In this document: positions 2,987-30,497 of the stretch, piece after piece
Position numbering within the stretch: position 1 is the stretch's first letter
Layout: each line of letters begins with the position of its first letter
Assembly: GCA_014803545.1 (NCBI GenBank)
Contig: JAAVBN010000008.1
Span: 1 to 32,867, forward strand
From: a bacterium
GTDB lineage: Bacteria; Pseudomonadota; Alphaproteobacteria; Rs-D84; CACZYB01
DNA: 32,867 bases
Direction of reading: 5' to 3'
Notes under the pieces: generated by a model
What the model was told of the DNA's origin: nothing
What the model saw: the letters and a program-made list of their open reading frames with translations, nothing else
Database searches by the model: none
Translations under genes and position numbers: made by a program

Positions 2987-4522
2987 TTACTTCTTCAATT
3001 CAGGTTTAGTTTTCATAACCTTTTTCCATTCATCAAACTCAGATTGCAAGAAGTCATAACTAAACTTATTCAACTCAGTATTTATCTGTTTTAAATTATA
3101 GTTGGAATAAGATTGTTCCATTGTCCCCTTACCTTCCCAACCTATAATGGAATTTATAATAGTAGGAATTAAACCTGCAGATTGCAAAGCTAAACTTGCA
3201 TTTTTACGAAAAGAATGGAAATCATAACCTTTACCTTTAAGACCTATTTCAGCCAAAAACTTAAACAAATATCTGCCCAAATATTTATTATTATACTCCC
3301 CACTTTTCGTTTTACATTTTGGAAAAATAAAATCTTCATCACCTGCTTTTAACTTTGACTTCTTTCTATCCACATAATCAAGAAAACCTAAATCCAAAAG
3401 TTGTTTATGTATAGGAACAAATCTTTCACTCGCATCATTTTTCAAATGTTTAATAGGATGATTTTCACAAAAATGTATACACCACAAACCATCCTTTGAA
3501 ACCACATTATTGTATTGTAAAGTCATTGCTGCATTAGCTCTTGCCCCAGTAAACAAAGCAATCATACAAATCCAAAATAAATCTGGTTCCCCTTCAAAAA
3601 ACTTATGTTTCGGATTGAAAAGTTCTTTCAGTTGAGTTTCACTATAAGGCAAATGAGGTTGCCTTTCGCTACCCTTTGTTTTTTCAAGGTTTGGTATTGA
3701 TACAAGAATATTTTTCTTATAAAAATCAGATTCCAACTCACATGCAAAACAAACAAATTCCTTTATATATCTAAGTTTTTGCCTCTTGTTGTCGTTTTGA
3801 ATATCCTTTTTATTAACAATATCCTCAGACAACTTTTGAATATTTTCAATAGTATGAAATTTTGCATAATCATCATCCAAAGATAAATTCAAATCATTAA
3901 AAATACCTTCAAAAAAATGTCTTTTTCTTGTAGTTTCAGCCTCACCATTATTTGCTTTCATAAGCATTGAATCCAACATATATTTAAGTGTGTATTTTGG
4001 TGGTTCTGATTTTTTAGGCATAATGCTTTGTCTTATTTGCTCTAACATATCAGGAGTAATTGACTTCTCACATAACTTATATTTATCTTCCATTGAATTC
4101 AATTTATCAAGAATTTCTTTTTGAACATTATACTTTCCAATATTTTGATTTACTTCATTTAAAAGTTTCATAAAGTCAAGAATTGTCTTTGGGTCATTAT
4201 CTTTTGATAAAAACAATCCGTCTGGAATATTAAGCATAAGTCCATAATAACCAGAAGGTAAAGAACCTCTTCTATACTCTATAACTTCAATTTTTGAATA
4301 TAGTTCACATAATCTATCAAATTTTTCATTGAACTCTTTAATTTCATCCATTTTACCCAAAGCCTCATAATAATTGGAGGTATGCAAAGAATAGCAAAAA
4401 TACCTTCTTTTACCTCCATTCCTTGATAATTCAATTCTACAATAAAATACATTATTTCTCAACCATAAATGAGGTTGAATTCTGCCTTGTGCCATACACT
4501 TTGCCATACACTTTTCACCCAT
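2987..4522 (-). CDS. Tyrosine recombinase/phage-type integrase
   Basis: A 511-residue site-specific recombinase. The N-terminal 'LWLRNNVFYCRIEL' region resembles the DUF6538 arm-binding domain of alphaproteobacterial integrases, and a SAM-like core-binding domain follows. The catalytic domain shows Arg328 (GARANAAM), a Lys near 361 (HLKNDASERFVPI), His436-x-x-Arg439 (HSFRKNA), Trp462 in place of the second His (GWEGKG) and a nucleophile Tyr472 (SYSNY; Tyr475 is the alternative). All catalytic positions appear intact. The frame extends to a TTG at 4591 with no Shine-Dalgarno; the ATG at 4522 has AGGGA 8 nt upstream, and two further in-frame ATGs follow within ten codons. The gene lies next to the 3' end of tRNA-Leu, the classic attachment position, so it probably integrated this element. 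Confidence 0.9.
   Translation of the reverse strand: MGEKCMAKCMAQGRIQPHLWLRNNVFYCRIELSRNGGKRRYFCYSLHTSNYYEALGKMDEIKEFNEKFDRLCELYSKIEVIEYRRGSLPSGYYGLMLNIPDGLFLSKDNDPKTILDFMKLLNEVNQNIGKYNVQKEILDKLNSMEDKYKLCEKSITPDMLEQIRQSIMPKKSEPPKYTLKYMLDSMLMKANNGEAETTRKRHFFEGIFNDLNLSLDDDYAKFHTIENIQKLSEDIVNKKDIQNDNKRQKLRYIKEFVCFACELESDFYKKNILVSIPNLEKTKGSERQPHLPYSETQLKELFNPKHKFFEGEPDLFWICMIALFTGARANAAMTLQYNNVVSKDGLWCIHFCENHPIKHLKNDASERFVPIHKQLLDLGFLDYVDRKKSKLKAGDEDFIFPKCKTKSGEYNNKYLGRYLFKFLAEIGLKGKGYDFHSFRKNASLALQSAGLIPTIINSIIGWEGKGTMEQSYSNYNLKQINTELNKFSYDFLQSEFDEWKKVMKTKPELKK
4491..4514. repeat. Perfect 12-bp tandem duplication in the integrase start region
   Basis: GCCATACACTTT occurs twice back to back (4491-4502, 4503-4514). 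On the coding strand it duplicates the codons for KCMA and yields alternative in-frame ATG codons near the integrase start. It may be a simple slippage duplication. Confidence 0.75.
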
Positions 4523-14782: not shown

Positions 14783-16520
14783 TTAATCCCAATATTTGAA
14801 TAACTGCTTTTCTGAGGAATATTGTTTCAGCTTTGAAACATAATCACTACCATAATTATAAAGATGATAAGCGTTCGAAGTGTTTCTACATAGATAATCC
14901 TGGGCAACCCATGTTCTCCCTTCAAGTAATGATAGATTAAAATAAGCTCCAATAATAGGTCTGTATCCATCCCATGCTTCATATTCTTCCTCCGTCCAAC
15001 CATTAACTCCTGTATTATCAATATCAGAAGAATTCATTTTCACCTTTAATAAACCAATACGTGAATAAATTTTTGTTGTTGAAGTAGAAGGGCAAATATT
15101 AACAGTAATAGATTTTGAATCAATATCTCTAGAAAGAACATTTACTGCATTAGTCATGCATGTATATTTATAACTAGAAAAAGTAGCATCAGATAAACTC
15201 CTTAACTTAATAATTGATGTATATGATTTACCATAAGGAATAACATCCACATAATTATCAAACTTTATAGGGCATCCCTTTTTATTTTTACCATAATTAT
15301 TTCTATCAACAATATTCTTAATTTTACCATCCTTATCCATAATAAAAGCCTTTCTAAAGAAGTCACTACAATATAGGTTTGTTGGATCAGCAACAGCCCA
15401 ATTATTGGTCCAGCCGTCAACACAGGTGTAATCGTCCTCTGTTCCCTCAACTTTTTTGATACGGAGTTTGGCAAGTCTTTGTGCCTCATCTTCATTTACT
15501 TGAGGGGCACTTACCACAGGTTGAGGTGCCTCATCCTCAACTACTGGTTCTGGTTCAACAACATCATCTTTACCCACACAATCAGCAATAGAAGATGCTC
15601 CCTTTGTTGACGAAGTTCCCGTTGGGCAAGCCTCACATTTTACCTTTAATGAAGTCGCCATATCTTCTACTGGATAATAATTTGCTGGGCATTCAAACTT
15701 ATACGCCTTTTCATCAGCCAATGTATAGGACAAAAGATTTTCGTCACCCTTCACATTCCTTACTACCGCCTTTTCTGGTGCCAAACACACATCCTGAGTA
15801 TTTGGATTCTTATAGGTGGTTCCAGATTTTTCAACTATATCATTTATAGGACAAATTCCAGACGCGATAATACAGGTCTTTACCTTGTTCACCGTTTTTT
15901 CAACATACCCAGGGATACAAGTCAAAAACGCAGTTTCCGCCTCACTTATCCAAGAAGGTCTGGTCTGCAAACTTTTATCATAGGTGTCTTTTTTAGCCTT
16001 TTCCCAGGTCACAACCTCTGCAATATCGCCCTCTGGCAAAGTACATTCCTGAGTTTTTGAAGAGTAGTAAATGTATTCGGCTTTTTCTTCATTGTATGTT
16101 TTTCTTAAAAATGTAGCAACAGGACATACCGTAGTTTTTGCTGAGGAAGTAGTGGTTGAGGTTGTAGTCACAGCTTTCTTTGTAGAACCTCTTGAAATAG
16201 CTCTTTTAGTTGAAGCTTTGGTTGTCGCGGCACGCTTAGTGCTTGATTTGTTAGAAGTCACCGCCCTTTTTGTTGAAGTTTTAGTTGTTGCGGCCCTCTT
16301 GGTTGAAGCTTTGGTCGTCGCCGCTCTCTTTGTGCTTGATGTTGATTTAGAAGATGAACTCGCCCTTTTCCTTGGCGCTGCATTAACAAAATTTTGTGAA
16401 GATACTACAATAGTGGCAATAATCATAAAGAACAATGAAAGGATATAATCCTTTGATTTTACAAAACTTTTACCCCCCCCCTTGTGGATTCTTACAAATA
16501 TAAAATACTTTCTTTAACAT
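14783..16520 (-). CDS. Exported cationic-repeat protein, frame broken by a G9 tract (phase-variable candidate)
   Basis: The body is an open frame from 16435 to 14783. The natural start seems to be the ATG at 16520: it has a promoter (16548-16576) and GGAG 8 nt upstream. From it the frame reads MLKKVFYICKNPQ and then meets nine G (coding strand; 16473-16481), after which TAA follows in frame. With eight G the frame would run through GGGKSFVKSKDYILSLFF into the signal-peptide core (IIATIVVSS...FVNAA) and the rest. The mature N-terminus has six STKRA-type repeats (16160-16336), then a Cys-rich ectodomain with one 'CPTGTSST...DCV' module like eukaryote-type GCC2/GCC3 repeats. No Shine-Dalgarno precedes the internal ATG at 16426. 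Function is unknown; probably secreted or surface-exposed. A sequencing error in the homopolymer would look the same. Confidence 0.75.
16160..16336 (-). repeat. Coding tandem repeat, STKRAATTKA-type
   Basis: About six degenerate copies of a 9-11-codon unit (STKRAATTKA, STKRAATTKT, STKRAVTSNKS, STKRAATTKA, STKRAISRG, STKKAVTTT) lie directly after the signal peptide region. The composition is Lys/Arg/Thr/Ser/Ala, strongly basic and probably unstructured. It could act as a cationic stalk contacting peptidoglycan, lipid A or host glycans (inference). Confidence 0.85.
16473..16481. repeat. Homopolymer tract of nine C (G on the coding strand)
   Basis: Nine consecutive C on the plus strand, outstanding in DNA this AT-rich. 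It lies 14 codons into the apparent reading frame of the exported protein and decides whether that frame continues (8 G) or stops at once (9 G). Confidence 0.95.
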
Positions 16521-16547
16521 AATATATTCTCCTTTTTTTATACGGAT

Positions 16548-16576
16548 ATTATATCACAAATTTCAAATATACACAA
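16548..16576 (-). promoter_or_regulatory. Promoter of the exported cationic-repeat gene
   Basis: Minus-strand TTGTGT (16571-16576), a 17-bp spacer and a perfect TATAAT (16548-16553). Transcription would begin about 20 nt upstream of the ATG at 16520 and so upstream of the G tract, supporting that ATG as the start. Confidence 0.55.
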
Positions 16577-30221: not shown

Positions 30222-30497
30222 TTATTTGTTAATAGCTTCTTTCAATGTTTTACCAGCTTTAAATTTAGGTTGTTTAGAAGCAGGTATTTTAATTTCTTCA
30301 CCAGTTCTTGGGTTATGACCTTTTGTTGCTTTTCTTTTTGAAACAGCAAAAGTACCAAAACCAATAAGACGAACTTCTTCACCTTTTTTCAAAGCTTTTG
30401 TTATAACATTTACAAAGCTATCAAGAACTTCACCAACTTTTACTTTTGAAAGTTCTGTTGAATCTGCAATAGCATTTATTAAATCATTTTTGTTCAT
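30222..30497 (-). CDS. hup: DNA-binding protein HU
   Basis: A 91-residue nucleoid protein of the HU/IHF family that dimerises and bends DNA. The signature 'GFGTFAVSKRKATKGHNPRTGEEIKIPA' region (quoted in parts) contains the intercalating Pro in the 'NPRTG' arm tip, and the 'KFKAGKTLKEAIN' tail is typical. The arm sequence is that of HU rather than IHF. AAGGAG lies 6 nt before the ATG; it has its own promoter and terminator. Confidence 0.97.
   Translation of the reverse strand: MNKNDLINAIADSTELSKVKVGEVLDSFVNVITKALKKGEEVRLIGFGTFAVSKRKATKGHNPRTGEEIKIPASKQPKFKAGKTLKEAINK

Follow-up and report, generated by a model that had tools for sequence, protein, structure and literature searches.

The window, that is, the whole stretch of 32,867 nucleotides analysed here, carries on its minus strand a run of nine G residues between a start codon and the long open frame of a predicted exported protein. 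The locus is made up of the following features:

16548–16576, minus strand: σ70-like promoter (TTGTGT-17-TATAAT), read from the sequence
16529–16532, minus strand: Shine–Dalgarno sequence GGAG, 8 nt 5′ of the ATG, read from the sequence
16482–16520, minus strand: start codon (16520–16518) and 13-codon stub MLKKVFYICKNPQ, from sequence and frame analysis
16473–16481, minus strand: G9 tract, the proposed slippage switch (OFF at G9, ON at G8 or G11)
16470–16472, minus strand: TAA abutting the tract, an immediate stop in the assembled frame
16446–16458, minus strand: predicted IHF-consensus site AATCAAAGGATTA (WATCAAN4TTR), 14 nt 3′ of the G9 tract
16379–16471, minus strand: rest of the signal peptide in the open frame (KSFVKSKDYILSLFFMIIATIVVSSQNFVNA)
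14783–16471 with the stop codon (16471–14786 without), minus strand: 562-codon open frame, exported Cys-rich protein
15572–16138, minus strand: conserved Cys-rich domain, for which most AF2 pLDDT values exceed 90 and likeness to Ephrin_rec_like/TNFR is weak

Rereading this region directly on the minus strand, we found the promoter, the GGAG and the ATG at 16520 upstream of the G9 tract, with TAA immediately after it, as the first-pass annotation had described. That annotation had further proposed that one G fewer would join this start to a long open frame with a signal peptide. In agreement with this, the +1 frame beyond the tract is open for 562 codons, its N-terminal start (KSFVKSKDYILSLFFMIIATIVVSSQNFVNA followed by APRKR) is a plausible signal peptide, and the ATG at 16520 is joined to it at 8 or 11 G, not at 9. 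The frame is otherwise intact, the tract being its sole interruption. The internal ATG at 16426, described as having no Shine–Dalgarno sequence, indeed lacks one and is located within the hydrophobic core of the signal peptide. Orthologues starting at an ATG of the 16426 type without a tract, which would have refuted the proposal, were not found among the homologues compared. The tract-less homologues (in the genomes G001, G002 and G004, together with the paralogue L136 in the window's own genome) start at their own ATG in front of an ordinary, continuous signal peptide, and for this reason the tract in this family looks, on comparison of the homologous sequences, like a lineage-specific addition to the n-region of the signal peptide.

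The Cys-rich domain spans about 190 residues and follows a stretch rich in Ser, Thr, Lys, Arg and Ala. The window protein has no Pfam or NCBIfam match above cut-off; Ephrin_rec_like is matched by 7 of 13 aligned homologues and only weakly by the window protein itself. The AF2 fold of the Cys-rich core is confident, and Foldseek returned only weak TNFR-like matches (E ≥ 0.013). It can safely be described as an exported protein, probably one of the surface.

The genome from which the window comes (G000; 1.06 Mb, 39 contigs) contains 45 runs of at least eight G, the window's G9 being one of them. From dinucleotide content, about 1.3 such runs are expected in the 248 kb around the tracts, compared with the 45 seen, which bears out the earlier description of G9 as exceptional in such AT-rich DNA. 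Counted over the same 248 kb and not over the whole genome, runs of G or C have a bimodal length distribution, with 87 of length 5, 5 of length 6, none of length 7, and then 4, 31, 9 and 1 of lengths 8, 9, 10 and 11. The sequence analysed in detail came from segments surrounding tracts and motif sites alone. Lengths peak sharply at G9, and almost every tract retrieved from G009 has this length; a signal of fixed length would also fit. TAA comes next after 42 of the 45 tracts, and genome-wide the pattern G8TAA occurs 42 times in G000 versus once for the reversed control pattern. Corresponding counts are 24 versus 1 in the sister species G005, 39 versus 4 in G008 and 18 versus 3 in G009; the enrichment is less clear in G192, from another family of the order (13 versus 5). 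It is limited to these four or five among the 201 genomes of the order counted, nearly all the others having 0–6 matches, and no G8TAA tracts were found in G001, G003 and G004, which belong to the same genus as G000. Counting G9 followed by two non-G bases gives 114 tracts in G008, 97 in G009, 41 in G192 and 26 in G005, and in G009 the TA after the tract is often replaced by CA. The 41 tracts of G192 suggest a second repertoire, independent or ancestral. At L015 (G000 C6, minus-strand position 2924), a G9 lies midway in a 533-residue coding frame with CAA instead of TAA. Loss of mutS was considered as a cause and rejected: each of the 13 genomes tested has the gene, which means that missing mismatch repair does not account for the tracts.

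Tracts occur at the 5′ ends of exported-protein genes, in promoter spacers, upstream of promoters and in intergenic hairpins. In the coding class, an ATG with a Shine–Dalgarno sequence is followed 0–45 nt on by the tract and then by a long frame, as in 14 genes of G000 and about as many of G005; as assembled, 24 of these tracts are OFF and 4 ON. Joining start and frame requires G8 or G11 in 19 of 27 coding tracts of the genus (G000 and G005) and G7/10 or G9/12 in L022, L047, L051, L024, L035, L065 and L066, so that ON lengths fall in all three classes. The P-value for the G8/G11 bias (about 1e-4) assumes independent genes, which these are not. The promoter-spacer class, TTGACA-N-G9-TAnnnT, accounts for 29 of the 65 tracts retrieved from G008 versus 0.16% of random positions; these tracts were picked for TAA, and the fair comparison is with the −35 element alone, at 5.5%. 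Spacing in G008 is mostly 18–19, with a second group at 15–16, and in G009 TTGACA-G9 spacers of 18 lead to TATAAT. Locus L117 of G008 has divergent promoters at 3447 and 3500, each with a G9 spacer. In the class upstream of promoters, an IHF-like site is followed by C9 and, 0–18 nt further, by the promoter; the genes behind encode GmrSD-type restriction (L012), ABC transporters (L018, L032) and an outer-membrane β-barrel protein (L025). The hairpin class consists of intergenic repeats with G8–10 in or beside the loop. Hairpin-repeat families with G9 or G10 were seen at L010, L011, L016, L017, L021–L024, L029, L030, L034, L037 and L039, and some of them lie at the ends of contigs; within one genome, L021 (G9) and L022 (G10) are almost identical. 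Structured RNA was considered and rejected, 14 loci giving no Rfam match other than tRNAs. Overall, the tract-linked genes, which include those for exported proteins, a sulfatase, a PAP2 phosphatase, a GT92 glycosyltransferase, GmrSD restriction, outer-membrane proteins and ABC transporters, are typical contingency genes with surface, exported or defence products. Several targets have no family match.

For twelve of the G000 tracts, G005 has kept a tract in the syntenic position. Five of the twelve pairs differ in length (8/9, 8/10, 11/9, 9/8 and 10/9), which fits independent draws of tract length, the fraction expected from the observed distribution being 0.48. Tract length thus varies between relatives in these five pairs; in the window's own pair, G9 is kept (L052/L123, 9/9). 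The syntenic gene in G005 encodes an exported protein with an N-terminus of like kind and a different C-terminal part; L124, from an alphaproteobacterial MAG, has no gene at this place. Together with the ON lengths in all three classes, the orthologous length differences elsewhere support the first-pass reading of the tract as a contingency locus, switching itself being inferred. They also bear on the possibility that the tract is of fixed length, with programmed slippage of RNA polymerase or the ribosome on G9 taking a fraction of the products into the long frame. G9 as the mode, and the need of most coding tracts of the genus for one and the same one-base correction, would suit such a mechanism; the G8 bias may reflect shared descent of the 5′ ends. 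Since other coding tracts need a different correction, orthologous lengths differ, and tracts in promoter spacers and upstream of promoters have no frame to correct, we consider programmed slippage unlikely.

A further conserved element accompanies the tracts. The sequence GTAAAWTCAAN4TTA, found beside them, has 23 genomic copies in G000 versus none for the control, and its A form contains the IHF consensus WATCAAN4TTR. At the window locus, the site at 16458–16446 matches the IHF consensus WATCAANNNNTTR exactly, binding being inferred. A strict or relaxed IHF-like site is located near 40 of 67 tracts of the genus (G000 and G005) versus 4–5% of control gene starts. The relaxed form, WWTCAAN4TTR, lies within 90 nt of 22 of 42 tracts in G000 and 18 of 25 in G005 (control gene starts, 4.4% and 5.3%), and the strict form is near 8 and 14 tracts, respectively (3.3% and 4.0%). 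Three layouts recur: 13–15 nt 3′ of the tract (14 in the window), abutting it in reverse, and 14–15 nt 5′ of it in reverse. Many copies share descent and nominal P-values overstate the surprise, though the layouts differ in sequence. The IHF–tract link is absent from G008 and G009. We had considered the protein motif GGGKxxVxSxxY as the conserved entity and rejected it; the DNA is kept in frame-less intergenic copies (L019, L020 and L040), which led us to recognise the IHF consensus instead. Two HU/IHF-family proteins, encoded at C9 and C12, have IHF alpha and beta as their best NCBIfam matches, below the curated cut-offs; a third is HU-like (best match HU-beta), its gene lying in the window at 30222–30497 on the minus strand. 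IHF binding at the tract-linked sites is an inference from sequence. Copies of GTAAAWTCAAN4TTA also occur in relatives without tracts, at parS-like sites and close to a tRNA. A parS-like TGTTTCACGTGAAACA site and, about 20 bp from it, an IHF-like site were seen at L142, L150 and L161 (G000), L159 (G003) and L153–L156 (G007); in G007 they belong to a multi-copy element in which 41 bp separate two IHF-like sites.

It is possible, though we put this forward only tentatively, that the genus has a recurring IHF–poly-G module in two orientations, serving either as a coding frame switch or, placed between a promoter and a bend made by IHF, as a spacer of variable length, in which one base would rotate the bend by about 35 degrees; the rate of slippage may also be set by IHF or by the fixed context. 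The same sites could be taken to mean that G9-TA(A) serves in protein binding or chromosome organisation, IHF possibly taking part, and that its length changes are incidental. The TAA found after tracts in all contexts, the fixed spacing of IHF-consensus sites in both orientations and the tracts in intergenic hairpins are in keeping with this. However, tracts just past start codons or in promoter spacers are placed where length would alter frame or spacing, the tract is absent from same-genus relatives, and the TA is often CA in G009, so that a binding motif of this kind seems very unlikely. A decayed pseudogene, or an artefact of assembly or base calling, is highly unlikely despite the single metagenome assembly, error-prone homopolymers and a frame broken as assembled, given that the enrichment recurs in four related genomes and in none of the siblings, the tract is the only break in the 562-codon frame, lengths of 8–11 are manageable for short reads, and the syntenic G005 gene also has G9. 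Tracts in promoters and between genes share the narrow 8–11 distribution, which makes a uniform assembly error unlikely.

We therefore think it very likely that the window's G9 is a simple-sequence contingency (phase-variation) locus, one of a genome-wide repertoire. The sequence anatomy, the excess of tracts, their positional conservation with between-species length differences and the gene classes are directly observed; slippage, switching within populations and the effect on expression are inferred. The usual features of such loci are met, namely a homopolymer longer than chance, placed where a change in length alters frame or promoter, with lengths that differ between relatives and with exported, surface or defence genes affected. 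Replication slippage would add or remove a G in the window tract. With 8 or 11 G, the start codon would be in phase with the open frame, so that the exported Cys-rich protein would be made; with 9 or 10 G, translation would stop within a few codons. On the best-supported reading, the window tract is OFF at its modal length of G9, the consequence for expression being inferred. The repertoire of about 45 tracts may act at translation (in the signal-peptide n-region), in the spacer separating −35 from −10, or in the interval from an IHF site to a promoter.

Large repertoires of poly-G tracts have been described chiefly in a small number of cultured pathogens, such as Campylobacter, Helicobacter and Neisseria. 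Campylobacter jejuni NCTC11168 has 29 poly-G/poly-C tracts of at least 7 (PMC4965091). The likeness lies in a small AT-rich genome with reading frames that contain long runs of G, in frame switching and in surface or glycan genes. In contrast to C. jejuni, tracts are more numerous here (45 of at least 8 in 1.06 Mb, and more than 100 in the relative G008), are located in the signal-peptide n-region, with a near-constant TAA and a link to the IHF consensus, and belong to another phylum. Neisseria porA and opc are reportedly examples of promoter-spacer homopolymers. Homopolymers between −10 and −35 have been described in Neisseria (PMC2791445). Here, too, the tract lies between TTGACA and the −10 element, with spacing mostly 18–19 at the modal length and 17 if one or two bases shorter, but dozens of promoters share the layout in G008 and G009. 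Bordetella fim promoters contain a C-stretch (PMC1891110), likewise placed downstream of a binding site and ahead of the core promoter, whereas the upstream site here is an IHF consensus instead of an activator site and the module is also found inside coding sequence. In Neisseria meningitidis nadA, IHF binds at the edge of a length-variable TAAA promoter tract (PMC2791445). This resembles the predicted IHF site at a length-variable repeat in a promoter here; nadA differs in having a tetranucleotide at one locus, as opposed to poly-G at many loci with a spacing of 13–15 nt or zero. The repeat of Helicobacter pylori sabA is a T-tract, not poly-G, and we know of no link of it to IHF. Repeat length in the sabA promoter region tunes promoter activity as a rheostat (PMC4081817). 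By analogy, each layout has its separate known parallel, in Campylobacter, the Neisseria promoters and nadA, Bordetella fim or H. pylori sabA.

In the open-licence literature we found no report of such tracts for this alphaproteobacterial group. The best reading is that the principle of phase variation is known, that its scale in such an alphaproteobacterium is new to us and that the IHF-linked module is unusual. Tracts are gained or lost between close relatives in this uncultured, small-genome alphaproteobacterial family, and in one genus the repertoire is tied to a predicted protein-binding site. The system offers a way to study how such tracts arise and persist, and whether a switch based on slippage is tuned by a protein that bends DNA.
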